A stretch of DNA of 64,000 nt from Lunularia cruciata. Taxonomy: Eukaryota; Streptophyta; Marchantiopsida; Lunulariales; Lunulariaceae. This document shows, piece after piece, positions 9,763-43,365 of the stretch. A program made the position numbers and the translations under genes. The notes below the pieces were generated by a model. It saw only the letters and a list, made by a program, of their open reading frames with translations, ran no database searches and was not told where the DNA came from. The DNA lies in NCBI GenBank assembly GCA_948567375.1, contig OX419757.1:25600732-25664731 (forward strand), in the 5' to 3' direction. Position 1 is the stretch's first letter. The number at the start of each line of letters is the position of its first letter.

Positions 9763-9931
9763 ACCTAGTGGCCCATGCAACCAGATCTGTATACCAACCG
9801 ACAGATAGAGTGGCACAAAAAGCTTGGTAGGGAAGTCTCTCATGCTCCATGGACCTCACCTTAGTGGCATATTTGATAGCTAAAAACAAAGCTTCAGCCT
9901 CAAGAGGCAAAAACCCGGTTTCAGGAAGCAT
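9763..9931 (-). mobile_element. LINE fragment G, ORF2 C-terminal piece, inverted
   Basis: 169 bp minus-strand match to the post-RT region (ETGFLPLEAEALFLA to the AWATRW segment). Part of it (about 9831-9860) is the reverse complement of the end of copy F (about 9733-9762), so F and G form a foldback with a loop of about 70 bp. Confidence 0.8.
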
Positions 9932-15180: not shown

Positions 15181-15282
15181 CAATGAACAATGAACAATGA
15201 AATATAAAGCCTGAAAGACCCAAAGAGTCAAAAGGCTAGAAACACAATACAAAACACATGAAATGTGAGCCTAGGCAAGGGC

Positions 15283-18200
15283 CTAGGGCATCTGACCAAT
15301 CTGTAACAAATTGGTCCGATGTAAACTAACTTCTGTCATGTACTTCCCTAACGCTAAAGCTTCAACCTGTAAAAGAGTACAGAAATCACAACAAATAATC
15401 TGATGTCTAACTCTGATCAGCATGTAACTAGGGCAATCAATAAACACATGATGCTCATCCTCAACTTTGCTCATAATACACAATTTGCACAATCGCATGG
15501 AGTGCTCTATCTACTGCCAACGTCCTTGTTCTACTTCTAGTCTATGAGAACTAGTTCTATACTGAGCAATAACATGTCTAAGTGAAGTAGAAATCCTAGC
15601 CAAGAGATAATCTTGCTCACAATACACCAACATAGGATTTACAAACTGCTGATAGAACACCATCTTGGTACCGGGTTGCTGCCACAGGCGAAGTAAGAAC
15701 TGCTCCTTGATCACTTCTCGTAGTGCAATAGGCTCCAATCTCCAATGTCGCTCCGAAACATTCCACCTAGTGGCCCATGCAATCAGATCTGTATACCAAC
15801 CGACAGATAGAGTGGCACAAAAAGCTTGGTAGAGAAGTCTCTCATGCTCCATGGACCTCACCTTAGTGGCATATGTGATAGCTAAAAACAAAGCTTCAGC
15901 CTCAAGAGGTAAAAACCCTATTTCAGCAAGCAGCAATACATAAGGAGTTTGAGTCCTCACCCCAAGTTCATCACACAAAAACAATTTCTGAACTTTCTCC
16001 ACCTTTTGCCACCATGTCTTCTTAGTACTTGGACCCCAAATCTGAGCACCATAGAGAACCACCGGCTGCACAAGAGATCTGAACAGCACCTTCTTCAACT
16101 CCCATGTGGTAAGGTGAGGAAGTCTACTGCGGTTCATGAGTGAATACAAAGCTCTAAAGCCTGCATTGATTCTCATCTTCACACAAGTAGACCAACTATA
16201 GTCGTGAGAAAACTCAAGGCCCAAGTACTTATAAGAAGAAACCTGCTCCAATTGCTGTCCATAAAAAAAGAAAGGTGTGACACCTTTAGAACCCACCACA
16301 ATGACCTTGGACTTGTCAAGGTTCACCTCCATCTTTGTTTGATTGCAAAAGCAAAGTAGAGAATCCAACAGCTTCTGTAAACTCTGTGGATTTGTGGAGA
16401 GAAGCACTACATCATTTGCATAAAGGAGTGCATGTATCATCAAAGAGCCAACCTGTACATCTGTAGCTCCAGCTTCCATGAGTAGACTCTCTAGATCATC
16501 GATGAAGATTCCGAACAGAGTTGGAGACAGAGAGAAGCCTTGAATCACACCCATTGTGCTAAGGACATCTTGAGAGCTCAAAGATGAAAGTTTCACAATC
16601 ACTTTCTCATAGAGTCTAGAGATAGCACCAATCAGATCAGCTGAAACACCCACTTCAATGAGTCTCTCACTTAGAGATTTCCTCAGCACCTTATCAAAGG
16701 CCTTCCTGAAATCAATAAAGGCAACATAGAGAGCTCTCCCAACCCCCTTGGATTTCCACCACAAAACATGAAGTACCAATAGGTGGTCCAAAGTACTAAA
16801 GCCTAATCTAAAACCAGCTTGGCACTTAGCTTGAATTTTGTGCTTTTCACCCCAAGTGCTCAACCTTGACTCCAAAATTCGACCATACAACTTGGCAAAG
16901 ACACTACCAACAAGTATGGTACGGTAATTGGTGACAACATCTCTCTGGCAGGACTTCTGAATAGAAACTACCTTCTTGAAGCACCATCTATCCGGAAGGC
17001 CACACTTGATTGCCTCATTCAAATGAGAAGTGAGTATTGAAATCAGTTGGCTTCCGCCCCACTTCAGAAGTTCAACACATAGTCCATCAAGGTCTTCAGC
17101 CTTACCATTGGCCAACTTCTTCAATTGGTATTTGACATCAGCTTCAGAGATGGTGAGAGCAGATCCAAGGCAAGGTGCCATGCTTGGAGCATTTGGGAAA
17201 AAGTACAAATCCTTCACATAGTCACAAAGCTCATTCAGGTCCAGCGATGGAGATGGAGATCTGATGGTTACTTTCTTCCAGAAAGCCTTGGGATTGCTCC
17301 TCAATTCAGTGCTCAATTCAACTCCTTTGAGTCTTAGAAATGGCCGCTTTTTGCACTTCACCAACTTTCTATATAAAACAAAAGCTTGATTTTGTGCAAT
17401 CTGATCAAGAGATCTATCCATAGCTTTGATCCTTGCCATTTTGCAATCAGCATCATACCATCTATTGCAAGGGAGACCAAGTCTCTTCCTGTGGGAGCCT
17501 CTTGGAAACAAAAAAGTTGATGTAGATTGAAGAAGTTCAATCAATTGATCACTACGTTGTTGAAAATCAGAACTCCACTCCATAGAACTCAATTTCTCTT
17601 GGATAGCTTGTTGGTACAAGTCTCTCTTGTGAAAATCTAGACGAAGTTTGCCTCTAAAAGCATGGTCTATAGGTAATGTGGTTCTATTGAGGCAAGGAAA
17701 AAGGATGGTACAAGATAGAGGTGCATGGTCTGATTCTAGTTGAGGATCTAAAACAGCAAAATCTGAGACAAGATGGATATCATTAGCTGAAGTGAGCATA
17801 TAATCTATGGTGCTTGATCCACCTGAAGCAAAGCATGTGGTTTTACAAGTTTCTGGAAATTGAGAAAGGCCATTCAAGATCTTCAAGCTACAATTGGCAC
17901 CAAAGCTCAAAAAGTGCTCACTCATGGAATTGGACATAGGATCTTTGGAAGAGCTTGACCAAGCACTGGAATGGTCTATCAAGCTGTGGAAAGGATCATT
18001 CTCAAGGTCGCTCAAGTCAGGGATCTGAGAGGCTTGGATCCTAGCATTGAAATCACCAAGAACAAGGACTGCACCTTTACTTTGAAACTCTAACACATCC
18101 TTCGTCAAGGAATGGAAAGGCTGCATGGTGTTGAGAAGTCCACTTGAATAGATTGGTGATGTCAACGGGGCAAAGTAACAAACAGCAATGAAGCAAGGTG

Positions 18201-18516
18201 TGGCAACTCCTCCAATCCTCAGCCATTGGTATTGTCCACTTGAATCTTGACCTATCAAAGAGACTGATTTCTCAAAGCCAAATCTGACGTAAGTAGCAAT
18301 ACCTCCAAAGCCTCTTCCTTTGTGTTGTCTCCGCTTGTTCCAGGTTGAACCAACAAGAGTGAATCCTTCAATGTCTTGAATGGTGTTTCCTTCATGTTCC
18401 CATATCTCCACAAGATTGATCAGATCAGCATCATCCCACAAAGTCTTAGCGCTGGAGTACTTGGTATGTATGAGCCCATGAACATTCCAAAACAGTACTC
18501 TAAAGGTTTGGAATTG
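15283..18516 (-). pseudogene. LINE ORF2 (EN-RT), copy M, single in-frame stop
   Basis: 1077 codons after the ORF1 TAG, the same length as the intact copies and with no frameshift. Endonuclease motifs (LFWNVHGL, VEIWE, GDFNAR, SDHAPLS) are present, but the RT box is YANDVVLL instead of YADD, so a catalytic Asp has become Asn. A CAG to TAG change at codon 1002 (15511-15513) cuts off the zinc knuckle. It is recently dead on at least two counts. Confidence 0.88.
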
Positions 18517-19344
18517 CTATGCAGTAGCTGATAATTTCTTTTGAGTAATCACAGCTCTATTATCTCTCAAGAATGCAACAAAACCTGCTTGTTGAGCCTC
18601 CTTCACTTTTGCTAATTCTCCCTTCTTTGCTTGCCATTGGAGAGGTGTGAGATCAGGGTCCAACCAGATACGCCGCCCCTTTAGTATAGCTTTGTTCCCC
18701 ATCACTGCATTCCTTTGAGTTTCTGAGCCAAACCTCACCAAAATGCTTCTTGGTTGTGCACCTTGTTGTCCCAATCTATATGCTTGCAAAATTTGAGGAT
18801 CATGGACTCTCAAAGAATCAGCAATAAACTCACACACTATGGTCTTCTCAATCTCAGGCAAACCTGAAATCCTCAAGTTCTTCATTCTCACCAATTGGTT
18901 CTCCTTCTCAAACTCATGCTCTTGCAAGTAAGAGATTTGAGCCACTTTCGTAGCTTCAGCATATGACTTCATCTTGACCTCTAATGTGTCAACTATCTCT
19001 TGCAGCCCTACATTTTGTGAAGCAATGTTGGTGGCTTGTGCTCCCAAGGAAGCAACCTTCTCAGTAGCATCCACCATACCCTTGGTGGAGTCTAACATCA
19101 AATTGCTACTCTTCTTGAGTTCTTGGATATCTACGGTGATCGAATTCAGAGATTCTTTCACAGTCAAGACATCAACTCTTACGGTTTGCAAATCTGCCAT
19201 AAGAGTGTTCATGCATTGAGACATGGGGGCAAAAAAGCTCTTGAGTTCCTTGTGTAAGTCATTTGCTTTTCTATACATTTCAGCAAATTGTTGCTGTTTT
19301 GAAGCTATCTCAGCAATGTCTTGCATCATCTTGGAAGCTTCCAT
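18517..19344 (-). CDS. LINE ORF1 protein (copy M), 275 aa
   Basis: Open from the ATG at 19344 (MEASKMMQD). It is four residues shorter than the 279-aa form: the EDTK after EIEK in the RRM-like loop is missing, an in-frame 12-bp deletion shared with copy O. All other domains are present. It ends in TAG CAA TTC, and ORF2 continues in frame. Confidence 0.85.
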   Translation of the reverse strand: MEASKMMQDIAEIASKQQQFAEMYRKANDLHKELKSFFAPMSQCMNTLMADLQTVRVDVLTVKESLNSITVDIQELKKSSNLMLDSTKGMVDATEKVASLGAQATNIASQNVGLQEIVDTLEVKMKSYAEATKVAQISYLQEHEFEKENQLVRMKNLRISGLPEIEKTIVCEFIADSLRVHDPQILQAYRLGQQGAQPRSILVRFGSETQRNAVMGNKAILKGRRIWLDPDLTPLQWQAKKGELAKVKEAQQAGFVAFLRDNRAVITQKKLSATA

Positions 19345-20393
19345 TCTAAAATTTCTAACAGATACTATGAGAATTTATCCTCTGGTTCACTCACACTCTA
19401 TGAACACCAATAGCTCTACACCAAAAATCAACTCCTTTGGACTTGTAAATCAAAAGTTACAAACTTTTGAATTTGAGTTTTTTCCTACATGAAAATTTTG
19501 AAATCCTACAGATTTCGAAAATTCATAACCTTGCCTACAGTACTTTAAAATCTACAATAGATGACTCAATCAAAAGCTCTTGAGAAATTCTATCCAATGA
19601 ATCAAAAATGAAGTCATTTGAGCCAATAGACATGAAGTTATGGCCTCTAGAGTTCTCTATAGTAAACTTCTAAACCTCATTGAATCACAGAATTCAAATG
19701 CTAATAACTGCAAGCAAAAAGCTTCAAATTCTATGAAATGAATTTCAATCAATAGCTCTTGACAAGATGCTTCTAATGAGTCCAAGATCACCTCATTTGC
19801 AGATGTGAGTCCAAAGTTCCAGCCTCTGAAAGTTGCAGATTTGAGCACCACCAACCGCACAAGAACACAGATTGATGAATTTCGAAACTTCTTCCACATA
19901 ACTCCAACTTCAGCAACCAGGAATTCACAAGAAAGCCGTGTCACAGCTGTTTCCAATGAGTCTAAGATTGAAAGATTTGGACATGGAACCAAAAAGTTAC
20001 AAGGTGTTGAAAATTGAGCTCAAACCCTAAAATCTCCGAGAGATGGCAGAATTCGAATCTTTATAACTTTCTTTGTGTATGTGCTCTGCAGGCTAGCCTA
20101 GTATCAATCGAAAGAGATTCCAAAGGCGCTTCTAATGCCACAAAAATCACTCCATTTGGATACCATATGATGAAGATTTGAACTCTCAAGTCTAGCTCGT
20201 GTGTCAGAAATTTCAATCACTCATAACGTTTCGCACAAAGCTCATAATGACACAATCTTGGTAGGTATGGAAAGGTCTTGGCAAGGTGCTTCGAACGAGA
20301 CCAAAACCGCAACGTTTGGACATGTATGTAGGGAGATATGGCTTCTCAAACTTTCGGGACTCCTCTCCTCTCAAACTTTCGAAACTCCACTCC
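19345..20393 (-). repeat. 5' UTR of copy M: six diverged units of about 175 bp
   Basis: Anchors of the form AAAATCA-CTC-ATTTGGA recur on the plus strand at about 19430, 19610, 19785, 19965, 20140 and 20300, giving steps of 160-180 bp. The units are diverged from each other but match the equivalent units in copies O and Q closely. Confidence 0.65.
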
Positions 20394-23066: not shown

Positions 23067-25401
23067 TCCTAGTGGACCAACTATAGTCATGAGAAAACTC
23101 AAGGCCCAAGTACTTATAAGAAGAAACCTGCTCCAATTGTTATCCATCAAAAAAGAAAGGTGTGACACCTTTAGAATCCACCACAATCACCTTGGACTTG
23201 TCAAGGTTCACTTCCATCTTTGTTTGATTGCAAAACCAAAGTAGAGAATCCAACAGCTTCTGTAAACTTTGTGGATTTGTGGAGAGAAGCACTACATCAT
23301 CTGCATAAAGGAGTGCATGTATCATCAAAGAGCCAACCTGTACACCTGTAGCTCCGGCTTCCATGAGTAGACTCTCTAGATCATTGATGAAGATTCCGAA
23401 TAGAGTTGGAGATAGAGAGCAGCCTTGGATCACACCCATTGTGCTAAGGACATCTTGAGAGCTCAAAGATGAAAGTTTCACAATCACTTTCTCATAGAGT
23501 CTTGAGATAGCACCAATCAGATCAGCTGAAACACCCACTTCAATGAGTCTCTCACTTAGAGATTTCCTCAGCACCTTATCAAAGGCCTTCCTGAAATCAA
23601 TAAAGGCAACATAGAGAGCTCTCCCAACCCCCTTGGATTTCCACCACAAAACATAAAGTACTAATAGGTGGTCCAAAGTACTAAAGCCTGATCTGAAACC
23701 GGCTTGGCACTTAGCTCGAATTTTGTGCTTTTCAGCCCAAGTGCTCAACCTTGACTCCAAAATTTGACCATACAACTTGGCAAAGATACTACCAACAAGT
23801 ATGGTACGGTAATTGGTGACAACATCTCTCTGGCCAGACTTGTGAATATGAACTACCTTCTTGAAGCACCATCTATCCGGAAAGCCACACTTGATTGCCT
23901 CATTCAAATGAGAAGTGAGTACTGAAATCAGCTGGCTACTGCCTCACTTCAGAAGTTCAACACATAGTCCATCAAGTTCTTCAGCCTTACCATTGGCCAA
24001 CTTCTTTAATTGGTATTTGACATCAGCTTCAGAGATGGTGAGAGCAGATCCAAGGTAAGGTGCCATGCTTGGAGCATTTGGGAAAAAGTACAAATCCTTC
24101 ACATAGTCACAAAGCTCATTCAGGTCCAGCGATGGAGGTGGAGATCTGATGGTTACCTTCTTCCAGAAAGCCTTGGGATTGCTCCTCAATTCAGTGCTCA
24201 ACTCAACTCCTTTGAGTCTCAGAAATGCCCACTTTTTGCACTTCACCAACTTTCTGTATGAAACAAAGGCTTAATTTTGTGCAATCTGACCAGGAGATCT
24301 ATCCATAGCTTTGATCCTTGCCATTTTGCAATCAGCATCAGACCATCTATTCCAAGGGAGACCAAGTCTCTTCCTGTGGGAGCCTCTTGGAAACAAAGAA
24401 GTTGATGTAGATTGAAGAAGTTCAATCAATTGATCACTACGTTGTTGAAAATCAGAACTCCACTCCATAGAACTCAATTTCTCTTGGATAGCTTGTTGGT
24501 ACAAGTCTCTCTTGTGAAAATCTAGACAAAGTTTGCCTCTAAAAGCATGGTCTATAGGTAATGTGGTTCTATTGAGGCAAGGAAAAAGGATGGTACAAGA
24601 TAGAGGTGCATGGTCTGATTCTGGTTGAGGATCTAAAACAGCAAAATCTGAGACAAGATGGATATCATTAGCTAAAGTGAGCATATAATCTATAGTGCTT
24701 GATCCACCTGAAGCAAAGCATGTGCTTTTACAAGTTTTTTGAAATTGAGAAACGCCATTCAAGATCTTCAAGCTACAATTGGCACCAAAGCTCAAAAAGT
24801 GCTCACTCATGGAATTGGACATAGGATCTTTGGAAGAGCGTGACCAAGCACTGGAATGGTCTATCAAGCTGTGGAAAGGATCATTCTCAAGGTCGCTCAA
24901 GTCAAGGATCTGAGAGGCTTGGATCCTAGCATTGAAATCACCAAGAACAAGGACTGCACCTTTACTTTGAACCTCTAACACATCCTTCGTCAAGGAATGG
25001 AAAGGCTGCATGGTGTTGAGAAGTCCACTTGAATAGATTGGTGATGTCAACGGGGCAAAGTAACAAACAACAATGAAGCAAGGTGTGGCAACTCCTCCAA
25101 TCCTCAGCCATTGGTATTGTCCACTTGAATCTTGACCTATCAAAGAGACTGATTTCTCAAAGCCAAATCTGACGTAAATAGCAATACCTCCAAAGCCCCT
25201 TCCTTTGTGTTGTCTCCGCTTGTTCCAGGTTGAACCAACAAGAGTGAATCCTTCAATGTCTTGAATGGTGTTTCCTTCATGTTCCCATGTCTCCACAAGA
25301 TTGATTAGATCAGCATCATCCCACAAAGGCTTAGCGCTGGAGTACTTGGTATGTGTGAGCCCATGAACATTCCAAAATAGTACTCTAAAGGTTTGGAATT
25401 G
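23067..25401 (-). pseudogene. LINE ORF2 (EN and RT), copy O, broken
   Basis: In frame after the ORF1 TAG. Endonuclease motifs LFWNVHGL, VETW, GDFNAR and SDH are intact, and so is the RT YADD. Stops: CAA to TAA at 24271-24273 and TGG to TGA at 23944-23946. The C-terminal third is missing. Confidence 0.87.
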
Positions 25402-26229
25402 CTATGCAGTAGCTGATAATTTCTTTTGAGTAATCACAGCTCTATTATCTCTCAAGAATGCAACAAAACCTGCTTGTTGAGCCTCCTTCACTTTTGCTAA
25501 TTCTCCCTTCTTTGCTTGCCATTGGAGAGGTGTGAGATCAGGGTCCAACCAGATACGCCGCCCCTTTAGTATAGCTTTGTTCCCCATCACTGCATTCCTT
25601 TGAGTTTCTGAGCCAAACCTCACCAAAATGCTTCTTGGTTGTGCACCTTGTTGTCCCAATCTATATGCTTGCAAAATCTGAGGATCATGGACTCTCAAAG
25701 AATCAGCAATAAACTCACACACTATGGCCTTCTCAATCTCAAGCAAACCTGAAATCCTCAAGTTCTTCATTCTCACCAATTGGTTCTCCTTCTCAACCTC
25801 ATGCTCTTGCAAGTAAGAGATTTGAGCCACTTTCGTAGCTTCAGCATATGACTTCATCTTGACCTCTAATGTGTCAACCATCTCTTGCAGCCCTCCATTT
25901 TGTGAAGCAATGTTGGTGGCTTGTGTTCCCAAGGAAACAACCTTCTCAGTAGCATCCACCATACCCTTGGTGGAGTCTAACATCAAATTGCTACTCTTCT
26001 TGAGTTCTTGGATATCTACGGTGATTGAATTCAGAGATTCTTTCACAGTCAAGACATCAACTCTTACGGTTTGCAAATCTGCCATAAGAGTGTTCATGCA
26101 TTGAGACATGGGGGCAAAAAAGCTCGTGAGTTCCTTGTGGAAGTCATTTGCTTTTCTATATATTTCAGCAAGTTGTTGCTGTTTTGAAGCTATCTCAGCA
26201 ATGTCTTGCATCATCTTGGAAGCTTCCAT
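25402..26229 (-). CDS. LINE ORF1 protein (copy O), 275 aa
   Basis: Open from the ATG at 26229 (MEASKMMQD). It lacks the same EDTK tetrapeptide as copy M, so both come from one source lineage. Domains are as in the 279-aa form. The stop context is TAG CAA TTC. Confidence 0.84.
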   Translation of the reverse strand: MEASKMMQDIAEIASKQQQLAEIYRKANDFHKELTSFFAPMSQCMNTLMADLQTVRVDVLTVKESLNSITVDIQELKKSSNLMLDSTKGMVDATEKVVSLGTQATNIASQNGGLQEMVDTLEVKMKSYAEATKVAQISYLQEHEVEKENQLVRMKNLRISGLLEIEKAIVCEFIADSLRVHDPQILQAYRLGQQGAQPRSILVRFGSETQRNAVMGNKAILKGRRIWLDPDLTPLQWQAKKGELAKVKEAQQAGFVAFLRDNRAVITQKKLSATA

Positions 26230-27299
26230 TCTAAAAGTTCTAACAGATACTATGAGAATGTATCCTCTAGTTCACCCACACTCTGTGAACACCAATAGCT
26301 CTACACCAAAAATCAACTCCTTTGGACTTGTAAATCAAAAGTTACAAACTTTTGAATTTGAGTTTTTTCCTACATGAAAATTTTGAAATCCTACAGATTT
26401 CGAAAATTCATAACCTTGCCTACAGTACTTTAAAATCTACAATAGATGACTCAATCAAAAGCTCTTGAGAAATTCTATCCAATGAATCAAAAATGAAGTC
26501 ATTTGAGCCAATAGACATGAAGTTATGGCCTCTAGAGTTCTCTATGGTAAACTTCTAAACCTCATTGAATCACAGAATTCAAATGCTGATAACTGCAAGC
26601 ACAAAGCTTCAAATTCTATGAAATGAATTTCAATCAATAGCTCTTGACAAGATGCTTCTAATGAGTCCAAGATCACCTCCTTTGAAGATGTGAGTCCAAA
26701 GTTCCAGCCTCTGAAAGTTGCAGATTTGAGCACCACCAACTGCACAAGAACACAGATTGATGAATTTCGAAACTTCTTCCACAGAACTCCAACTTCAGCA
26801 ACCAGGAATTCAAAAGAAAGCCCTCTCACAGCTGTTTCCAATGAGTCTAAGATTGAAAGATTTGGACATGGAACCAAAAAGTTACAAGGTGTTGAAAATT
26901 GAGCTCAAACCCTAAAATCTCCGAGAGATGGCAGAATTCGAATCTTCATAACTTTCTTTGTGTATGTGCTCTGCAAGCCTGCGTAGTATCAATCGAAAGA
27001 GATTCCAAAGGCGCTTCTAATGCCACAAAAATCACTCCATTTGGATACCATATGATGAAGATTCGAACTCTCAAGTCTAGCTCCTGTATCAGAAATTTCA
27101 ATCACTCATAACGTTTCGCACAAAGCTCAAAATGACACAATCTTGGTGGCTTTGGAAAGGTCTTGGCAAGGCGCTTCGAACGGGACCAAAACCGCAACGT
27201 TTGGACATGTATCTATATACATGTCCAAACATTGTGGGAGATATGGCTTCTCAAACTTTCGGGACTACTCTGCTCTCAAACTTTCGAAACTCGACTGCG
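26230..27299 (-). repeat. 5' UTR unit array of copy O, with a foldback insertion
   Basis: Same order of units as copies M and Q. A perfect inverted repeat, GTTTGGACATGTAT / ATACATGTCCAAAC with loop CTAT, lies at 27199-27230. The other copies have only the left arm there, so the right arm is new. Confidence 0.65.
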
Positions 27300-29136: not shown

Positions 29137-29238
29137 AGTGAATGAAACAATGAAACAATGAAACAATGAAATATAAAGCCCGAAAGACCCAAAGAGTCAA
29201 AAGGCTGGAAACACAATACAAAACACATGAAATGTGAG

Positions 29239-29256
29239 CCTAGGCAAGGGCCTAGG
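29239..29256 (-). other. 3' hairpin 2 of LINE copy Q
   Basis: CCTAGGC / GCCTAGG stem of 7 bp with a 4-base loop, overlapping the ORF2 stop codon. It is conserved in the other copies. Confidence 0.55.
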
Positions 29257-32200
29257 GCATCGGACCAATTTGTAACAAATTGGTCCGATGTAAAGTAACT
29301 TCTGTCATGTACTTCCCTAATGCTAAAGCTTCAACCTGTAAGAGAGTTGAGAAGTCACTGCAAGTAATCTGATGTCTAACTCTAATCTGCATGTAACAAG
29401 GGCAATCAACAAACACATGATGCTCATCCTCAACTTTGCTCATAATACACAATTTGCAGAGTCGCATGGAGTGCTCTATCTGCTGCCAACGTCCTTGTTC
29501 TACTTCTAGTCTATGAGAACTAGTTCTATATTGAGCGATAACATGTCTCAATGAAGTAGAAATCCTAGCCAAGAGATAATCTTGCTCACAATACACCAAC
29601 ATAGGATTTACAAACTGCTGATAGAACACCATCTTGGTACCGGGTTGCTGCCATAAGCGAAGTAAAAACTGCTCCTTGATCACCTCTCGAAGTGCAATAG
29701 GCTCCAATCTCCAATGTCGCTCAGAAACATTCCACCTTGTGGCCCATGCAATCAGATCTGTATACCAACCGACAGATAGAGTGGCACAAAAAGCTTGGTA
29801 GGGAAGTCTCTCATGCTCCATGGACCTCACCTTAGTGGCATATGTGATAGCTAAAAACAAAGCTTCAGCCTCAAGAGGTAAAAATCCTGTTTCAGCAAGC
29901 AGCAATACATAAGGAGTTTGAGTCCTCACCCCAAGTTCATCACACAAAAACAATTTCTGAACTTTCTCCACCTTTTGCCACCATGTCTTCTTAGTACCTG
30001 GACCCCAAATCTGAGCACCATAGAGAACCACCGGCTGCACAAGAGATCTGAACAGCACCTTCTTCAACTCCCATGTGGTGAGGTGAGCAAGTCTACTGCG
30101 GTTCATGAGTGAATACAAAGCTCTAAAGCCTGCATTGATTCTCATCTTCACACAAGTAGACCAACTATAGTCATGAGAAAACTCAAGGCCCAAGTACTTA
30201 TAAGAAGAAACCTGCTCCAATTGCTGTCCATCAAAAAAGAAAGGTGTGACACCTTTAGAACCCACCACAATGACCTTGGACTTGTCAAGGTTCACCTCCA
30301 TCTTTGTTTGATTGCAAAAGCAAAGTAGAGAATCCAACAGCTTCTGTAAACTCTGTGGATTTGTGGAGAGAAGCACTACATCATCTGCATAAAGGAGTGC
30401 ATGTATCATCAAAGAGCCAACCTGTACACCTGTAGCTCCAGCTTCCATGAGTAGACTCTCTAGATCATCGATGAAGATTCCGAACAGAGTTGGAGACAGA
30501 GAGCAGCCTTGGATCACACCCATTGTGCTAAGGACATCTTGAGAGCTCAAAGATGAAAGTTTCACAATCACTTTCTCATAGAGTCTAGAGATAGCACCAA
30601 TCAGATCAGCTGAAATACCCACTTCAATGAGTCTCTCACTTAGAGATTTCCTCAGCACCTTATCAAAGGCCTTCCTGAAATCAATAAAGGCAACATAGAG
30701 AGCTCTCCCAACCCCCTTGGATTTGCACCACAAAACATGAAGTACCAATAGGTGGTCCAAAGTACTAAAGCCTAATCTGAAACCAGCTTGGCACTTAGCT
30801 CGAATTTTGTGCTTTTCAGCCCAAGTGCTCAACCTTGACTCCAAAATTCGACCATACAACTTGGCAAAGACACTACCAACAAGTATGGTACGGTAATTGG
30901 TGACAACATCTCTCTGGCCAGACTTGTGAATAGGAACTACCTTCTTGAAGCACCATCTATCCGGAAAGCCACACTTGATTGCCTCATTCAAATGAGAAGT
31001 GAGTATTGAAATCAGTTGGCTACCGCCCCACTTCAGAAGTTCAACATATAGTCCATCAAGGTCTTCAGCCTTACCATTGGCCAACTTCTTCAATTGGTAC
31101 TTGACATCAGCTTCAGAGATGGTGAGAGCAGATCCAAGGCAAGGTGCCATGCTTGGAGCATTTGGGAAAAAGTACAAATCCTTCACATAGTCACAAAGCT
31201 CATTCAGGTCCAGCGATGGAGATGGAGATCTGATGGTTACTTTCTTCCAGAAAGCCTTGGGATTGCTCCTCAATTCAGTGCTCAACTCAACTCCTTTGAG
31301 TCTTAGAAATGCCCGCTTTTTGCACTTCACCAACTTTCTGTATAAAACAAAAGCTTGATTTTGTGCAATCTGATCAAGAGATCTATCCATAGCTTTGATC
31401 CTTGCCATTTTGCAATCAGCATCATACCATCTATTGCAAGGGAGACCAAGTCTCTTCCTGTGGGAGCCTCTTGGAAACAAAGAAGTTGATGTAGATTGAA
31501 GAAGTTCAATCAATTGATCACTACGTTGTTGAAAATCAGAACTCCACTCCATAGAACTCAATTTCTCTTGGATAGCTTGTTGGTACAAGTCTCTCTTGTG
31601 AAAATCTAGACGAAGTTTGCCTCTAAAAGCATGGTCTATAGGTAATGTGGTTCTATTGAGGCAAGGAAAAAGGATGGTACAGGATAGAGGTGCATGGTCT
31701 GATTCTGGTTGAGGATCTAAAACAGCAAAATCTGAGACAAGATGGATATCATTAGCTGAAGTGAGCATATAATCTATGGTGCTTGATCCACCTGAGGCAA
31801 AGCATGTGCTTTTACAAGTTTCTGGAAATTGAGAAAGGCCATTCAAGATCTTCAAGCTACAATTGGCACCAAAGCTCAAAAAGTGCTCACTCATGGAATT
31901 GGACATAGGATCTTTGGAAGAGCGTGACCAAGCACTGGAATGGTCTATCAAGCTGTGGAAAGGATCATTCTCAAGGTCGCTCAAGTCAGGGATCTGAGAG
32001 GCTTGGATCCTAGCATTGAAATCACCAAGAACAAGGACTGCACCTTTACTTTGAAACTCTAACACATCCTTCGTCAAGGAATGGAAAGGCTGCATGGTGT
32101 TGAGAAGTCCACTTGAATAGATTGGTGATGTCAACGGGGCAAAGTAACAAACAGCAATGAAGCAAGGTGTGGCAACTCCTCCAATCCTCAGCCAATGGTA

Positions 32201-32485
32201 TTGTCCACTTGAATCTTGACCTATCAAAGAGACTGATTTCTCAAAGCCAAATCTGACGTAAGTAGCAATACCTCCAAAGCCCCTTCCTTTGTGTTGTCTC
32301 CGCTTGTTCCAGGTTGAACCAACAAGAGTGAATCCTTCAATGTCTTGAATGGTGTTTCCTTCATGTTCCCATGTCTCCACAAGATTGATCAGATCAGCAT
32401 CATCCCACAAAGGCTTAGCGCTGGAGTACTTGGTATGTGTGAGCCCATGAACATTCCAAAACAGTACTCTAAAGGTCTGGAATTG
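29252..32485 (-). CDS. LINE ORF2: endonuclease-reverse transcriptase, copy Q, intact
   Basis: 1077 codons counted from the codon after the ORF1 TAG. The apurinic-type endonuclease spans residues 7 to about 265 (Asn11 in LFWNVHGL, Glu37 in VETW, GDFN 154-157, SDH 262-264). The RT follows with AFIDFRKAFDKV, GVIQGCSLSPTLF and YADD at 699-702 (30380-30391). A post-RT region and a C-terminal zinc knuckle (Cys1010, Cys1013, His1022/1023, Cys1028) end it. No RNase H is seen. The protein would nick target DNA and copy element RNA there. No ATG occurs in frame before about codon 131, which lies beyond Asn11 and Glu37. I therefore start the frame at the readthrough point, not at an ATG. All motifs are intact. 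Confidence 0.92.
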   Translation of the reverse strand, partial: QFQTFRVLFWNVHGLTHTKYSSAKPLWDDADLINLVETWEHEGNTIQDIEGFTLVGSTWNKRRQHKGRGFGGIATYVRFGFEKSVSLIGQDSSGQYHWLRIGGVATPCFIAVCYFAPLTSPIYSSGLLNTMQPFHSLTKDVLEFQSKGAVLVLGDFNARIQASQIPDLSDLENDPFHSLIDHSSAWSRSSKDPMSNSMSEHFLSFGANCSLKILNGLSQFPETCKSTCFASGGSSTIDYMLTSANDIHLVSDFAVLDPQPESDHAPLSCTILFPCLNRTTLPIDHAFRGKLRLDFHKRDLYQQAIQEKLSSMEWSSDFQQRSDQLIELLQSTSTSLFPRGSHRKRLGLPCNRWYDADCKMARIKAMDRSLDQIAQNQAFVLYRKLVKCKKRAFLRLKGVELSTELRSNPKAFWKKVTIRSPSPSLDLNELCDYVKDLYFFPNAPSMAPCLGSALTISEADVKYQLKKLANGKAEDLDGLYVELLKWGGSQLISILTSHLNEAIKCGFPDRWCFKKVVPIHKSGQRDVVTNYRTILVGSVFAKLYGRILESRLSTWAEKHKIRAKCQAGFRLGFSTLDHLLVLHVLWCKSKGVGRALYVAFIDFRKAFDKVLRKSLSERLIEVGISADLIGAISRLYEKVIVKLSSLSSQDVLSTMGVIQGCSLSPTLFGIFIDDLESLLMEAGATGVQVGSLMIHALLYADDVVLLSTNPQSLQKLLDSLLCFCNQTKMEVNLDKSKVIVVGSKGVTPFFFDGQQLEQVSSYKYLGLEFSHDYSWSTCVKMRINAGFRALYSLMNRSRLAHLTTWELKKVLFRSLVQPVVLYGAQIWGPGTKKTWWQKVEKVQKLFLCDELGVRTQTPYVLLLAETGFLPLEAEALFLAITYATKVRSMEHERLPYQAFCATLSVGWYTDLIAWATRWNVSERHWRLEPIALREVIKEQFLLRLWQQPGTKMVFYQQFVNPMLVYCEQDYLLARISTSLRHVIAQYRTSSHRLEVEQGRWQQIEHSMRLCKLCIMSKVEDEHHVFVDCPCYMQIRVRHQITCSDFSTLLQVEALALGKYMTEVTLHRTNLLQIGPMP
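29258..29290 (-). other. 3' hairpin 1 of LINE copy Q (perfect 15-bp inverted repeat)
   Basis: CATCGGACCAATTTG and its exact reverse complement are separated by 3 bases, within the last codons of ORF2 (HRTNLLQIGPM). Copy R has the same perfect repeat at 38330-38362. Older copies have two or three mismatches in the second arm. Confidence 0.6.
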
Positions 32486-32488
32486 CTA
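32480..32488 (-). other. Candidate stop-codon readthrough site between LINE ORF1 and ORF2
   Basis: ORF1 ends GCA TAG CAA TTC and the same frame stays open for 1077 codons. TAG CAA TTC matches five of six positions of the UAG-CARYYA context known from tobamovirus-type readthrough. A 7-bp pairing (GAGTACT with AGTACTC) is possible starting about 20 nt downstream. The same TAG CAATTC occurs in copies D, L, M, O and R. Confidence 0.6.
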
Positions 32489-33325
32489 TGCAATAGCTGA
32501 CAATTTCTTTTGAGTAATCACAGCTCTATTATCTCTCAAGAATGCAACAAAACCTGCTTGTTGAGCCTCCTTCACTTTTGCTAATTCTCCCTTCTTTGCT
32601 TGCCATTGGAGAGGTGTGAGATCAGGGTCCAACCAGATACGCCGCCCCTTTAGTATAGCTTTGTTCCCCATCACTGCATTCCTTTGAGTTTCTGAGCCAA
32701 ACCTCACCAAAATGCTTCTTGGTTGTGCACCTTGTTGTCCCAATCTATATGCTTGCAAAATTTGAGGATCATGGACTCTCAAAGAATCATCAATAAACTC
32801 ACACACTATGGCCTTGGTGTCTTCCTTCTCAATCTCAGGCAAACCTGAAATCCTCAAGTTCTTCATTCTCACCAATTGGTTCTCCTTCTCAACCTCATGC
32901 TCTTGCAAGTAAGAGATTTGAGCCACCTTCGTAGCTTCAGCATATGACTTCATCTTGACCTCTAATGTGTCAACCATCTCTTGCAGCCCTTCATTTTGTG
33001 AAGCAATGTTGGTGGCTTGTGCTCCCAAGGAAGCAACCTTCTCAGTAGCATCCACCATACCCTTGGTGGAGTCTAACATCAAATTGCTACTCTTCTTGAG
33101 TTCTTGGATATCTACGGTGATCGAATTCAGAGATTCTTTCACAGTCAAGACATCAACTCTTACGGTTTGCAAATCTGCCATAAGAGTGTTCATGCATTGA
33201 GACATGGGGGCAAAAAAGCTCTTGAGTTCCTTGTGGAAGTCATTTGCTTTTCTATACATTTCAGCAAGCTGTTGCTGTTTTGAAGCTATCTCAGCAATGT
33301 CTTGCATCATCTTGGAAGCTTCCAT
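32486..33325 (-). CDS. LINE ORF1 protein, copy Q, intact
   Basis: 279 aa from the ATG at 33325 (MEASKMMQD). Residues 1 to about 130 look like a coiled coil with a QQQL-rich start. The RRM-like part has NLRISGLP at 156-163 and RSILVRFGS at 203-211, and a basic C-terminal domain runs from about 222 to 279. No CCHC knuckle is present. As in L1-type ORF1p, it should bind element RNA as an oligomer and act as a chaperone in the RNP. It is directly followed, in frame, by ORF2 after one TAG. Confidence 0.92.
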   Translation of the reverse strand: MEASKMMQDIAEIASKQQQLAEMYRKANDFHKELKSFFAPMSQCMNTLMADLQTVRVDVLTVKESLNSITVDIQELKKSSNLMLDSTKGMVDATEKVASLGAQATNIASQNEGLQEMVDTLEVKMKSYAEATKVAQISYLQEHEVEKENQLVRMKNLRISGLPEIEKEDTKAIVCEFIDDSLRVHDPQILQAYRLGQQGAQPRSILVRFGSETQRNAVMGNKAILKGRRIWLDPDLTPLQWQAKKGELAKVKEAQQAGFVAFLRDNRAVITQKKLSAIA

Positions 33326-34372
33326 TCTAAAATTTCTAACAGATACTATGAGAATGTATCCTCTGGTTCACTCACACTCTGTGAACACCAATAGCTCTAC
33401 ACCAAAAATCAACTCCTTTGGACTTGTAAATCAAAAGTTGCAAACTTTTGAATTTGAGTTTTTCCTACATGAAAATTTTGAAATCCTACAGATTTCGAAA
33501 ATTCATAACCTTGGCTACAGTACTTGAAAATCTACAATAGATGACTCAATCAAAAGCTCTTGAGAAATTCTATCCAATGAATCAAAAATGAACTCATTTG
33601 AGCCAATAGACATGAAGTTATGGCCTCTAGAGTTCTCTATGGTAAACTTCTAAACCTCATTGAATCACAGAATTCAAATGCTGATAACTGCAAGCACAAA
33701 GCTTCAAACTCTATGAAATGAATTTCAATCAATAGCTCTTGACAAGATGCTTCTAATGAGTCCAAGATCACCTCATTTGAAGATGTGAGTCCAAAGTTCC
33801 AGCCTCTGAAAGTTGCAGATTTGAGCACCACCAACCGCACAAGAACACAGATTGATGAATTTCGAAACTTCTTCCACAGAACTCCAACTTCAGCAACCAG
33901 GAGTTCAAAAGAAAGCCCTCTCACAGCTCTTTCCAATGAGTCCAAGATTGAAAGATTTGGACATGGAACCAAAAAGTTACAAGGTGTTGAAAATTGAGCT
34001 CAAACCCTAAAATCTCCGAGAGATGGCAGAATTCGAATCTTCATAACTTTCTTTGTGTATGTGCTCTGCAAGCCTGCGTAGTATCAATCGAAAGTGCTTC
34101 CAAAGGCGCTTCTAATGCCACAAAAATCACTCCATTTGGACACCATATGATGAAGATTCGAACTCTCAAGTCTAGCTCCTGTGTCAGAAATTTCAATCAC
34201 TCATAACGTTTCGCCCAAAGCTCAAAATGACACAATCTTGGTGGCTATGGAAAGGTCTTGGCAAGGCGCTTCGAACGAGACCAAAACCGCAACATTTGAA
34301 CATGTATGTATGGAGATATGGCTTCTCAAACTTTCGGGACTCCTCTCCTCTCAAACTTTCGAAACTCCACTG
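33326..34372 (-). repeat. 5' UTR of copy Q: array of about six units of about 175 bp
   Basis: Same organisation as copy M, with anchors near 33410, 33590, 33765, 33945, 34120 and 34280. The outermost part has a shorter direct repeat built on CTCAAACTTTCG(G/A) at about 34325 and 34350. Probable internal promoter region, by analogy only. Confidence 0.65.
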
Positions 34373-38323: not shown

Positions 38324-41300
38324 CTAGGGCATCGGACCAATTTGTAACAAATTGGTCCGATGTAAAGTAACTTCTGTCATGTACTTCCCTAATGCTAAAG
38401 CTTCAACCTGTAAGAGAGTTGAGAAGTCACTGCAAGTAATCTGATGTCTAACTCTAATCTGCATGTAACAAGGGCAATCAACAAACACATGATGCTCATC
38501 CTCAACTTTGCTCATAATACACAATTTGCAAAGTCGCATGGAGTGCTCTATCTGCTGCCAACGTCCTTGTTCTACTTCTAGTCTATGAGAACTAGTTCTA
38601 TATTGAGCGATAACATGTCTCAATGAAGTAGAAATCCTAGCCAAGAGATAATCTTGCTCACAATACACCAACATAGGATTTACAAACTGCTGATAGAACA
38701 CCATCTTGGTACCGGATTGCTGCCATAAGCGAAGTAAGAACTGCTCCTTGATCACCTCTCGAAGTGCAATAGGCTCCAATCTCCAATGTCGCTCAGAAAC
38801 ATTCCACCTTGTGGCCCATGCAATCAGATCTGTATACCAACCGACAGATAGAGTGGCACAAAAAGCTTGGTAGGGAAGTCTCTCATGCTCCATGGACCTC
38901 ACCTTAGTGGCATATGTGATAGCTAAAAACAAAGCTTCAGCCTCAAGAGGTAAAAATCTTGTTTCAGCAAGCAGGAATACATAAGGAGTTTGAGTCCTCA
39001 CCCCAAGTTCATCACACAAAAACAATTTCTGAACTTTCTCCACCTTTTGCCACCATGTCTTCTTAGTACCTGGACCCCAAATCTGAGCACCATAGAGAAC
39101 CACCGGCTGCACAAGAGATCTGAACAGCACCTTCTTCAACTCCCATGTGGTGAGGTGAGCAAGTCTACTGCGGTTCATGAGTGAATACAAAGCTCTAAAG
39201 CCTGCATTGATTCTCATCTTCACACAAGTGGACCAACTATAGTCATGAGAAAACTCAAGGCCCAAGTACTTATAAGAAGAAACCTGCTCCAATTGCTGTC
39301 CATCAAAAAAGAAAGGTGTGACACCTTTAGAACCCACCACAATGACCTTGGACTTGTCAAGGTTCACCTCCATCTTTGTTTGATTGCAAAAGCAAAGTAG
39401 AGAATCCAACAGCTTCTGTAAACTCTGTGGATTTGTGGAGAGAAGCACTACATCATCTGCATAAAGGAGTGCATGTATCATCAAAGAGCCAACCTGTACA
39501 CCTGTAGCTCCAGCTTCCATGAGTAGACTCTCTAGATCATCGATGAAGATTCCGAACAGAGTTGGAGACAGAGAGCAGCCTTGGATCACACCCATTGTGC
39601 TTAGGACATCTTGAGAGCTCAAAGATGAAAGTTTCACAATCACTTTCTCATAGAGTCTAGAGATAGCACCAATCAGATCAGCTGAAATACCCACTTCAAT
39701 GAGTCTCTCACTTAGAGATTTCCTGAGCACCTTATCAAAGGCCTTCCTGAAATCAATAAAGGCAACATAGAGAGCTCTCCCAACCCCCTTGGATTTGCAC
39801 CACAAAACATGAAGTACCAATAGGTGGTCCAAAGTACTAAAGCCTAATCTGAAACCAGCTTGGCACTTAGCTCGAATTTTGTGCTTTTCAGCCCAAGTGC
39901 TCAACCTTGACTCCAAAATTCGACCATACAACTTGGCAAAGACACTACCAACAAGTATGGTACGGTAATTGGTGACAACATCTCTTTGGCCAGACTTGTG
40001 AATAGGAACTACCTTCTTGAAGCACCATCTATCCGGAAAGCCACACTTGATTGCCTCATTCAAATGAGAAGTGAGTATTGAAATCAGTTGGCTACCGCCC
40101 CACTTCAGAAGTTCAACACATAGTCCATCAAGGTCTTCAGCCTTACCATTGGCCAACTTCTTCAATTGGTACTTGACATCAGCTTCAGAGATGGTGAGAG
40201 CAGATCCAAGGCAAGGTGCCATGCTTGGAGCATTTGGGAAAAAGTACAAATCCTTCACATAGTCACAAAGCTCATTCAGGTCCAGCGATGGAGATGGAGA
40301 TCTGATGGTTACTTTCTTCCAGAAAGCCTTGGGATTGCTCCTCAATTCAGTGCTCAACTCAACTCCTTTGAGTCTTAGAAATGCCCGCTTTTTGCACTTC
40401 ACCAACTTTCTGTATAAAACAAAAGCTTGATTTTGTGCAATCTGATCAAGAGATCTATCCATAGCTTTGATCCTTGCCATTTTGTAATCAGCATCATACC
40501 ATCTATTGCAAGGGAGACCAAGTCTCTTCCTGTGGGAGCCTCTTGGAAACAAAGAAGTTGATGTAGATTGAAGAAGTTCAATCAATTGATCACTACGTTG
40601 TTGAAAATCAGAACTCCACTCCATAGAACTCAATTTCTCTTGGATAGCTTGTTGGTACAAGTCTCTCTTGTGAAAATCTAGATGAAGTTTGCCTCTAAAA
40701 GCATGGTCTATAGGTAATGTGGTTCTATTGAGGCAAGGAAAAAGGATGGTACAGGATAGAGGTGCATGGTCTGATTCTGGTTGAGGATCTAAAACAGCAA
40801 AATCTAAGACAAGATGGATATCATTAGCTGAAGTGAGCATATAATCTATGGTGCTTGATCCACCTGAGGCAAAGCATGTGCTTTTACAAGTTTCTGGAAA
40901 TTGAGAAAGGCCATTCAAGATCTTCAAGCTACAATTGGCACCAAAGCTCAAAAAGTGCTCACTCATGGAATTGGACATAGGATCTTTGGAAGAGCGTGAC
41001 CAAGCACTGGAATGGTCTATCAAACTGTGGAAAGGATCATTCTCAAGGTCGCTCAAGTCAAGGATCTGAGAGGCTTGGATCCTAGCATTGAAATCACCAA
41101 GAACAAGGACTGCACCTTTACTTTGAAACGCTAACACATCCTTCGTCAAGGAATGGAAAGGCTGCATGGTGTTGAGAAGTCCACTTGAATAGATTGGTGA
41201 TGTCAACGGGGCAAAGTAACAAACAGCAATGAAGCAAGGTGTGGCAACTCCTCCAATCCTCAGCCAATGGTATTGTCCACTTGAATCTTGACCTATCAAA

Positions 41301-41557
41301 GAGACTGATTTCTCAAAGCCAAATCTGACGTAAGTAGCAATACCTCCAAAGCCCCTTCCTTTGTATTGTCTCCGCTTGTTCCAGGTTGAACCAACAAGAG
41401 TGAATCCTTTAATGTCTTGAATGGTGTTTCCTTCATGTTCCCATGTCTCCACAAGATTGATCAGATCAGCATCATCCCACAAAGGCTTAGCGCTGGAGTA
41501 CTTGGTATGTGTGAGCCCATGAACATTCCAAAACAGTACTCTAAAGGTCTGGAATTG
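38324..41557 (-). CDS. LINE ORF2: endonuclease-reverse transcriptase, copy R, open
   Basis: 1077 codons after the ORF1 TAG, with the same length and motifs as copy Q: LFWNVHGL, VETW, GDFN, SDH, YADD (39452-39463) and the C-terminal zinc knuckle. By eye it differs from Q at about a dozen residues (for example DIKGF for DIEGF, HLVLDF for HLVSDF, VFLLAETRF for VLLLAETGF, QQSGTK for QQPGTK). None hits a known catalytic residue. There is again no in-frame ATG before the endonuclease. Its 5' UTR is missing, so transcription would need an outside promoter. Confidence 0.9.
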   Translation of the reverse strand, partial: QFQTFRVLFWNVHGLTHTKYSSAKPLWDDADLINLVETWEHEGNTIQDIKGFTLVGSTWNKRRQYKGRGFGGIATYVRFGFEKSVSLIGQDSSGQYHWLRIGGVATPCFIAVCYFAPLTSPIYSSGLLNTMQPFHSLTKDVLAFQSKGAVLVLGDFNARIQASQILDLSDLENDPFHSLIDHSSAWSRSSKDPMSNSMSEHFLSFGANCSLKILNGLSQFPETCKSTCFASGGSSTIDYMLTSANDIHLVLDFAVLDPQPESDHAPLSCTILFPCLNRTTLPIDHAFRGKLHLDFHKRDLYQQAIQEKLSSMEWSSDFQQRSDQLIELLQSTSTSLFPRGSHRKRLGLPCNRWYDADYKMARIKAMDRSLDQIAQNQAFVLYRKLVKCKKRAFLRLKGVELSTELRSNPKAFWKKVTIRSPSPSLDLNELCDYVKDLYFFPNAPSMAPCLGSALTISEADVKYQLKKLANGKAEDLDGLCVELLKWGGSQLISILTSHLNEAIKCGFPDRWCFKKVVPIHKSGQRDVVTNYRTILVGSVFAKLYGRILESRLSTWAEKHKIRAKCQAGFRLGFSTLDHLLVLHVLWCKSKGVGRALYVAFIDFRKAFDKVLRKSLSERLIEVGISADLIGAISRLYEKVIVKLSSLSSQDVLSTMGVIQGCSLSPTLFGIFIDDLESLLMEAGATGVQVGSLMIHALLYADDVVLLSTNPQSLQKLLDSLLCFCNQTKMEVNLDKSKVIVVGSKGVTPFFFDGQQLEQVSSYKYLGLEFSHDYSWSTCVKMRINAGFRALYSLMNRSRLAHLTTWELKKVLFRSLVQPVVLYGAQIWGPGTKKTWWQKVEKVQKLFLCDELGVRTQTPYVFLLAETRFLPLEAEALFLAITYATKVRSMEHERLPYQAFCATLSVGWYTDLIAWATRWNVSERHWRLEPIALREVIKEQFLLRLWQQSGTKMVFYQQFVNPMLVYCEQDYLLARISTSLRHVIAQYRTSSHRLEVEQGRWQQIEHSMRLCKLCIMSKVEDEHHVFVDCPCYMQIRVRHQITCSDFSTLLQVEALALGKYMTEVTLHRTNLLQIGPMP
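38330..38362 (-). other. 3' hairpin 1 of LINE copy R (perfect 15-bp inverted repeat)
   Basis: Identical to the one in copy Q: CATCGGACCAATTTG with its exact reverse complement, loop of 3. Hairpin 2 follows at 38311-38328. Confidence 0.6.
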
Positions 41558-42397
41558 CTATGCAATAGCTGACAATTTCTTTTGAGTAATCACAGCTCTA
41601 TTATCTCTCAAGAATGCAACAAAACCTGCTTGTTGAGCCTCCTTCACTTTTGCTAATTCTCCCTTCTTTGCTTGCCATTGGAGAGGTGTGAGATCAGGGT
41701 CCAACCAGATACGCCGCCCCTTTAGTATAGCTTTGTTCCCCATCACTGCATTCCTTTGAGTTTCTGAGCCAAACCTCACCAAAATGCTTCTTGGTTGTGC
41801 ACCTTGTTGTCCCAATCTATATGCTTGCAAAATCTGAGGATCACGGACTCTCAAAGAATCAGCAATAAACTCACACACTATGGCCTTGGTGTTTTCCTTC
41901 TCAATCTCAGGCAAACCTGAAATCCTCAAGTTCTTCATTCTCACCAATTGGTTCTCCTTCTCAACCTCATGCTCTTGCAAGTAAGAGATTTGAGCCTCCT
42001 TCGTAGCTTCAGCATATGACTTCATCTTGACCTCTAATGTGTCAACCATCTCTTGCAGCCCTCCATTTTGTGAAGCAATGTTGGTGGCTTGTGCTCCCAA
42101 GGAAGCAACCTTCTCAGTAGCATCCACCATACCCTTGGTGGAGTCTAACATCAAATTGCTACTCTTCTTGAGTTCTTGGATATCTACGGTGATCGAATTC
42201 AGAGATTCTTTCACAGTCAAGACATCAACTCTTACGGTTTGCAAATCTGCCATAAGAGTGTTCATGCATTGAGACATGGGAGCAAAAAAGCTCTTGAGTT
42301 CCTTGTGGAAGTCATTTGCTTTTCTATACATTTCAGCAAGCTGTTGCTGTTTTGAAGCTATCTCAGCAATGTCTTGCATTATCTTGGAAGCTTCCAT
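41558..42397 (-). CDS. LINE ORF1 protein, copy R, intact
   Basis: 279 aa from the ATG at 42397 (MEASKIMQD). The frame is also open upstream through the foldback and hexamer run (SYSYSY), but that sequence is not part of the family protein, so the ATG is the start. Same domains as copy Q. The stop is TAG at 41558-41560 followed by CAA TTC. Confidence 0.9.
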   Translation of the reverse strand: MEASKIMQDIAEIASKQQQLAEMYRKANDFHKELKSFFAPMSQCMNTLMADLQTVRVDVLTVKESLNSITVDIQELKKSSNLMLDSTKGMVDATEKVASLGAQATNIASQNGGLQEMVDTLEVKMKSYAEATKEAQISYLQEHEVEKENQLVRMKNLRISGLPEIEKENTKAIVCEFIADSLRVRDPQILQAYRLGQQGAQPRSILVRFGSETQRNAVMGNKAILKGRRIWLDPDLTPLQWQAKKGELAKVKEAQQAGFVAFLRDNRAVITQKKLSAIA

Positions 42398-42417
42398 TCT
42401 AAAATTTCTAACAGATA

Positions 42418-42452
42418 CTATGAGAATGTATCCTCTGGATACATTCTCATAG
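42418..42452. repeat. 16-bp perfect inverted repeat at the 5' end of copy R
   Basis: CTATGAGAATGTATCC (42418-42433), 3-base loop TCT, GGATACATTCTCATAG (42437-42452). The left arm is normal LINE 5' UTR; the right arm is its mirror and then the LINE ends. It fits snap-back synthesis at the end of cDNA. Confidence 0.85.
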
Positions 42453-42472
42453 GAATAGGAATAGGAATAGGA
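42450..42472. repeat. GGAATA hexamer run
   Basis: Three to four tandem GGAATA units between the foldback of copy R and unique DNA. Confidence 0.8.
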
Positions 42473-43365
42473 AGGTTCGCACGATATCTTGATGTTCAAG
42501 AATTTCTGTGTATTATATTATACGATATATAGACCAGGAAATATATACAACAACGCTGATCTTCTCTCTCAAGGCTGTTAAGCTCCCTACGAAATACATC
42601 CTATAATATAGACGCAATAGATACAAGTCTATTTGGAGTTCAAGAAGAGAAATAGACATAGCAGGAAACCTCCAAATTCTATTAATTGAATCCTCAGCTT
42701 GTCGCTTGACATTACTTCACTTAGTTACCATGCATTCCATATTAAATTTATGATTATTATCTATCAAAAATTTGACAACATGAGATTTCAATCATAGATT
42801 TATGGGTATTTAGAAATACCCTAAAAACATTTTCGCATAAATTGTAATAAAATAATGAAATTCGTAAACTTTCTACGTGACCTCGTGATCCGGGTACGGA
42901 CCTCCCGTACAAGTTTATGAAAGCATTATTTAACTTGTTTTCTGGTCGACGTGTACCATAGACATGAATTTTTCTCCAGACGGGCATAAACTCAATGTTG
43001 TTTTGTCCAACTATGCAATTGTCAAATGATCACCCGCATACCTTTCTACAGGCATCCTATGGGAAAACGCATGTCACCCGGCAAAAACCGTCAATTTGAA
43101 TATTGAAACCCACTAATGTCTTTACCAATTTATGAGCAACGATACCACGCTCCTAATAAAGACAAATAAAATTCCATTTTGCATAAAATCTCACCAGGAA
43201 GGAAAGCATAACTAACCAGGTATTAATAGCTGAAGGTGAATTGCTACGCCACAACTATGCCGAATGAGGCACAGGTCAGGTCTGGTGAATATATGGTAAT
43301 GATTCCAAATTTTGCATCCATGCAACTACCGATGAGGTCATCAATATTACGCTCTTAAGATTTTA

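Follow-up and report, generated by a model that had tools for sequence, protein, structure and literature searches.

The window, a 64-kb stretch of the Lunularia cruciata genome (C6:25600732-25664731 of a 566-Mb assembly in 74 contigs), contains many copies of one LINE, of varied 5' extent. Its approximately full-length copy Q (~5.2 kb; 29137-34371, minus strand) was delimited by blastn of Q and its flanks against the full-length copy M (1630-6864 of the extended Q sequence) and against the 5' end of copy O. On the minus strand, Q begins with a 5' untranslated region of ~1.05 kb, placed by blastn (33326-34371), in which no open frame of at least 200 codons was found; this is followed by ORF1, whose ATG lies at 33325 and which has 279 codons (32489-33325), and by an in-frame TAG (32486-32488) that separates ORF1 from ORF2. 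The ORF2 frame comprises 1077 codons and a stop (29252-32485) and opens with an eight-codon linker, CAA TTC CAG ACC TTT AGA GTA CTG (QFQTFRVL; 32462-32485), whose first bases, CAATTC, resemble CARYYA and after which FWNVHGL follows directly. Pfam recognized an AP-type endonuclease domain (PF03372, E 6.1e-12) at ORF2 residues 10-264 (31694-32458) and a reverse transcriptase domain (PF00078, E 9.8e-29) at residues 519-769 (30179-30931), both above cut-off. With these two domains and with dispersed copies that include 5'-truncated ones, the element is a LINE with an AP-type endonuclease and a reverse transcriptase.

Two subfamilies, 88-89% alike, are represented in the window. Copies M (matched part 15283-19386, TAG at 18519-18517), O (matched part 23071-26271, 3' part not included, TAG at 25404-25402), Q and R make up the first, all on the minus strand; R (38324-42517) is 99.4% identical to Q, with its ORF1 frame at 42517-41558, its TAG at 41560-41558 and its ORF2 frame at 41557-38324. 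The second comprises D (2383-5016, TAG at 3221-3223; 89% identical to Q) and L (13596-15183, TAG at 14434-14436; 88%), both on the plus strand. ORF1 gave no Pfam match above cut-off; it is 44-49% identical to Marchantia and Logan proteins and 31-35% to proteins of Riccia, and some of the ORF1-like proteins of Marchantia and Riccia are labelled RRM-domain by their sources. Judged by look and by these source names, ORF1 appears to have coiled-coil and RRM character. For ORF2, Calypogeia fissa and Riccia sorocarpa supply the nearest named relatives. Elsewhere in the window (5388-9765), a minus-strand LINE copy (7182-5388) and a plus-strand one (7176-9765) meet at their 5' ends, and the ORF1 end is missing from both.

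The sequence GCATAGCAATTC occurs exactly at six sites in the window (3218 and 14431 on the plus strand; 18511, 25396, 32480 and 41552 on the minus strand), and all six are ORF1/ORF2 junctions reading GCA TAG CAA TTC, one in each of D, L, M, O, Q and R, as an earlier note on this DNA had described, and thus in both subfamilies. The other structural claims of that note also held: ORF2 is in phase with ORF1, the endonuclease begins eight codons past the stop, Q stays open between 32485 and its stop at 29252, and the ORF2 frames of Q and R are 1077 codons each. Only these two of the six copies are intact, because the ORF2 frames of the others are broken by additional stops, in D at codons 95 and 281, in L at 95 and 222, in M at 1002 and in O at 377, 486 and 754 (aligned to Q). 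A readthrough product would, by arithmetic, have 279+1+1077 = 1357 residues, the length that had been proposed. Two long frames in one phase with a single stop between them is the layout of a readthrough element, and we found it in the window family and in four distant relatives described below.

The stop belongs to the family at large. Across the genome the 12-base motif matched 586 times, vs 11 times for a reversed control, and two of the first eight matches cut out (L001 and L003) were chance occurrences rather than LINE junctions. With any codon allowed at the position of the stop, 445 junctions were matched (control 1), and TAG stood in 427 of them. Thirty loci cut out with ORF1 as query, the best of 150 scored from 1097 candidates and mostly young and alike, held 34 junctions, every one with TAG, after 4 of 38 pattern matches had been put aside as non-junctions. 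A distant ORF2 protein used as query gave a similar picture: among the best 41 of 2740 ORF2 candidates, several of which are near-identical duplicates, 37 were open for exactly 1077 codons and one had an internal stop. Given these genome-wide counts, the stop is a family trait and not the mark of a broken copy, and TAG is the founder state of this LINE family. Its retention among genome copies was considered as proof of function and rejected, since TAG and the neighbouring TTC change equally (18 of 445 and 15 of 442 junctions, respectively), as is expected of decay after insertion. The conservation test that the earlier note had suggested is therefore neutral, supporting neither side beyond common descent. 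In two of the 150 scored ORF1 matches the frame is open for 583 codons (C6:25297611-25298309 and C6:25363622-25364320); these copies may have lost the TAG, and a few ORF1 matches of 294-323 codons may have an extended front, as in R. A second, more distant family was sought in the host genome with the proteins P0015 and P0038; the 150 and 41 scored matches belonged to the same abundant family, as assigned by identity and frame length only.

Among the matches listed, copies of the LINE lie mostly in one block of ~0.4-1.6 Mb per large contig on eight contigs (C1, C2, C6, C7, C8, C10, C11 and C12), for example at 46.1-47.4 Mb of C1, 33.2-34.8 Mb of C2 and 24.9-25.6 Mb of C6, the last of which includes the window. 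Clustering of this kind is as would be expected for a centromere-targeted LINE, and Zepp-like LINEs of green algae and the poplar element Celine, similarly clustered, are described as concentrating at centromeres (PMC8226300, PMC11288735). Celine differs in having overlapping ORFs and a DUF4283 ORF1 (PMC11288735). At C1:46280215-46312026, junctions recur every 10,598 bases exactly (46280215, 46290813, 46301411 and 46312009), a pattern that points to tandem segmental duplication of a LINE-bearing stretch.

As the earlier note had stated, the ORF2 frame of Q is free of ATG up to codon 131 (32093-32095), which lies within the endonuclease. An AUG start there would cost the protein the front of this domain with its catalytic Asn and Glu. 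The codons ahead of this first AUG nonetheless evolve under constraint. Between D and Q, dN/dS was 0.22 in ORF1, 0.18 in ORF2 codons 1-131, 0.12 in codons 132-240 and 0.12 in codons 241-598; between L and Q, the values were 0.22 for ORF1, 0.21 for codons 1-131 and 0.17 for codons 132-240. Codons 1-131 are thus under selection at the protein level, which indicates that they are translated without an AUG in the active lineage. The linker points the same way: in 20 copies its shared variants comprised 4 synonymous changes and 1 nonsynonymous change, where ~72% nonsynonymous would be expected without selection (binomial P for at most 1 nonsynonymous of 5, ~0.02, by arithmetic and on five variants only). 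Singleton variants of the linker comprised 2 synonymous and 4 nonsynonymous changes, and shared variants in the last 30 codons of ORF1 comprised 8 and 11, respectively. These 20 copies were taken from 32 aligned sequences, leaving out near-duplicates, chimeric and poorly aligned rows, and one of 26 was put aside from the set of codon variants; most of the copies had been found via the motif, in which the stop and the two linker codons after it are invariant by definition. The comparison supports, in a small sample, a linker that probably evolves as protein.

Relatives of the element were sought in bacterial and archaeal genomes, where an alignment of ORF2 proteins found 20 loci (L059-L078), and in viral contigs, where four scans found none; one further locus, L084, was added by searching ten of the source genomes. 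The sources of L059-L078 are probably eukaryotic contigs misbinned into bacterial MAGs, deriving from hosts or accompanying organisms, and two of these MAGs bear names of Alviniconcha and Bathymodiolus symbionts. The stretch ahead of the endonuclease was readable in six loci of the clade (L059, L060, L061, L064, L065 and L084). In four of the six, L060, L061, L064 and L065, an upstream frame (298, 362, 185 and 366 codons, respectively, that of L064 being cut by the contig end) is followed by exactly one TAG and, from the next codon on, by ORF2 in the same frame, at 26-30% identity to the ORF2 of the window. Of the upstream frames, that of L060 is similar to the window ORF1 (28% over 141 columns, E 2e-8, among six sequences searched); no significant similarity to it was obtained for those of L061, L064 or L065, which by position and look appear to be ORF1. 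The endonuclease motif lies at about codon 16 in L060, 27 in L061, 102 in L064 and 94 in L065, and the first in-frame Met at codons 121, 53, 11 and 142, so that in three of these four relatives no Met precedes the endonuclease, the exception being L064.

The two remaining loci depart from this layout. In L059 a TAG precedes the ORF2 frame and a long upstream ORF1 is absent, and in L084 ORF1 and ORF2 share one frame with three stops between them and a Met ahead of the endonuclease. The earlier note had suggested searching related genomes for LINEs with the same in-frame TAG; the full layout of ORF1, one TAG and ORF2 in one frame was found in four of six relatives and not in L059 and L084. An ATG for ORF2, which the note had named as evidence to the contrary, is found in L084 and, ten codons after the stop, in L064, and is lacking ahead of the endonuclease in L060, L061 and L065. 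The ORF1 of L084 (first 1 kb, minus strand) is of a different kind, with a LIHTGTNDLT stretch reminiscent of an SGNH esterase. In L061 the upstream frame (373-1458) contains GDVETNPGP, a motif of the 2A type as defined in PMC4981915, and a second recoding event, StopGo, may accompany UAG readthrough in this element. The assembly from which L065 comes also contains LINEs of other groups: in L109 and L110 ORF2 is not in frame and has an ATG, and L113 has an ATG; the layouts of L111 and L112 are different and uninformative.

In a tree of 46 reverse transcriptase sequences, the window ORF2 clustered with the Calypogeia and Riccia proteins (support 0.99), and L060 fell inside the wider group around it (1.00). 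L061, L064, L065 and L084 were placed beside that group (0.86 for the whole, with several inner nodes weak), and the family lay far from the lone L1-like sequence used as root in this tree, which holds no named clade references. The layout with one UAG thus stands on both sides of a split in the tree, which would suit either inheritance from a common ancestor, followed by loss in L084, or more than one gain. Among publicly predicted proteins of the clade the picture was mixed. After 28 of 67 that did not reach the front of the endonuclease had been set aside, 39 remained, of which 18 have a Met before the endonuclease (some of them in joined gene models), 17 start inside it and 4 have another first residue.

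The context of the stop differs between the window family and its relatives. CAA TTC after the UAG agrees with CARYYA at five of six positions, as had been pointed out before, the sixth base being C instead of A, so that the type I motif is incomplete in the window family. The likeness does not extend to the relatives, in which the bases after TAG are GGG (L060), GAA (L061), GAC (L064) and GGA (L065); the CAA TTC context is lost outside the family, and a signal of the tobamovirus type can be at most a feature of the window family. Nor did the RNA 3' of the stop fold better than shuffled sequence in a pseudoknot-free model, either in the window family (z 0.15 and -0.06) or in the four relatives (z -0.32 to 1.40). 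The stable structure about 8 nt past the stop that marks the 3'-structure class of readthrough signals was not found in this model, from which pseudoknots are excluded, and a conserved stimulatory RNA structure was rejected on present evidence. A short GAGUAC/GUACUC helix in Q could stay paired via wobbles in other copies.

We consider it likely that ORF2 of this LINE is expressed by readthrough of the UAG. ORF1 and ORF2 would then form one frame of ~1357 codons broken by a single UAG, at which the majority of ribosomes would terminate and release the ORF1 protein, while a minority would decode the UAG as an amino acid and continue into an ORF1-endonuclease-reverse transcriptase fusion. From sequence comparison we infer readthrough itself, the ratio of the two products, the insertion of an amino acid at the stop and the role of CAAUUC as a stimulating context. 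Readthrough requires a common frame with a single stop and no AUG, a combination found in five families (that of the window and the four relatives), in four of which no AUG precedes the endonuclease. It is the best supported reading, given the founder TAG, the lack of a usable AUG, the selection past the stop, the varying CTG of the linker discussed below and the four relatives; against it stand the UAG-G of the relatives, the five-of-six match to CARYYA, the structure that was not found, the ordinary decay of TAG within the family, L084 and L059, the Met of L064, the three upstream frames unlike the window ORF1 and the mixed public proteins. The proposal in the earlier note is in this sense upheld by comparison, with part of what it had listed as contrary evidence present as well.

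Termination followed by reinitiation, or internal entry, in which ribosomes that have completed ORF1 would resume at a non-AUG codon close to the UAG and yield ORF2 as a protein of its own, has precedent among LINEs and appears unlikely here. In human LINE-1 and SART1, which like the window LINE have a two-ORF RNA, expression of ORF2 is described as unconventional and tied to the translation of ORF1, by ORF1-dependent reinitiation, which is proposed for LINE-1 and shown for SART1 (PMC5972666, PMC2881922). The short linker would suit a restart, as would a Met ahead of the endonuclease in 18 of the 39 clade proteins and, in two predictions (P0028 and P0039), a Met exactly at the start of this domain. 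Unlike the window LINE, however, both model elements have an AUG for ORF2, that of LINE-1 behind a 63-nt spacer and that of SART1 within UAAUG (PMC5972666). In Q no in-frame AUG lies ahead of codon 131, and the nearest AUGs 3' of the stop, 32 and 38 bases on, are in another frame. The best non-AUG candidate is the CTG at linker codon 8, for which D and L have TTG and O has CTA; this variation fits a leucine codon rather than a start, the CTG was rejected as a fixed start codon, and initiation at a CTG, which the earlier note had named as a possible finding against readthrough, is made less likely. Moreover, reinitiation requires neither a shared frame, yet the frame is shared across a single TAG in the window family and in four of six relatives, nor an open leader, yet ~93 codons are open ahead of the endonuclease in L065 and ~101 in L064, although the Met at codon 11 weakens the latter case.

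Far less probable is the lack of any functional link, with the frames shared by chance and the ORF2 protein supplied by other copies or transcripts. For the window family on its own the layout would arise with a probability of roughly 0.2 (one in three for the same frame, ~0.65 for nine open codons; arithmetic), and TAG shows no extra conservation. The layout in the window is by itself not very improbable, and the weight therefore rests on the missing AUG, on the selection before codon 131 and on the relatives. The same layout recurs in four relatives at 26-30% identity, for which arithmetic on random frames and spacers gives ~2e-7 for the four together, or 2e-6 for four of six, values in which L064, having its Met, is overcounted; selection acting on codons ahead of the first AUG also speaks against chance. 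Removal of the stop from the RNA by splicing or editing, giving ORF1 and ORF2 as a single frame, we find hardly credible, since new copies arise from RNA and splicing or editing of the template would produce stop-less copies, whereas such copies are rare (TAG is kept in 427 of 445 junctions, and the exceptions among 100 listed are AAG, GGG and TAA, with no CAG), and the joined Riccia models that might favour it, P0031 (ORF1-like sequence and the endonuclease start) and P0032 (ORF1-like sequence and ORF2), are predictions in which introns are a matter of interpretation.

Stop-codon readthrough of the kind proposed here has counterparts among viruses and LTR retroelements. In murine leukaemia virus the readthrough stop is a UAG followed by G, a context that resembles those of L060, L061, L064 and L065. 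Moloney murine leukaemia virus, like the window LINE, encodes two proteins in the same phase, separated by one UAG, and its Gag-Pol is made by UAG readthrough (PMC5009743); it is, however, a retrovirus with a stimulatory pseudoknot, whereas for the LINE no unusual structure was found in a model that leaves pseudoknots out. The tobamovirus replicase is expressed by readthrough at the type I motif UAG CAR YYA (PMC3542737), which the window family, with UAG CAA UU, approaches at five of six positions; tobamoviruses differ in being RNA viruses, in the sixth base (A, where the window family has C) and in a motif that is absent from the four relatives. In SIRE1 of soybean, a suppressed stop alone is said to separate the pol and env-like frames (PMC2829016, citing Havecker and Voytas, 2003). 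SIRE1 is likewise a plant retroelement with stop-separated frames, but an LTR element whose product after the stop is env-like and not an endonuclease-reverse transcriptase. The literature available to us, which covers the field in part, gave no instance of a non-LTR element expressed via stop-codon readthrough.

In summary, our comparison describes a LINE, and perhaps a LINE clade, that would work like a Gag-Pol readthrough element. A wider reading, which we hold tentatively and rate somewhat below an even prospect, is that a broad LINE clade, from liverworts to animals, has long and generally expressed ORF2 by UAG readthrough, producing ORF1 and the ORF1-endonuclease-reverse transcriptase fusion at a set ratio, with the bases after the stop (UAG-C here, UAG-G in the relatives) retuned in each lineage. 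The junction is a compact cassette of ~60 nt and can be assayed directly. Two LINEs in which the expression of ORF2 has been worked out, human LINE-1 and SART1, are described as using reinitiation. If readthrough is the mode in the Lunularia element, its reverse transcriptase, being fused to ORF1, could be carried into the particle of ORF1 and RNA in a constant proportion, as in a retrovirus.
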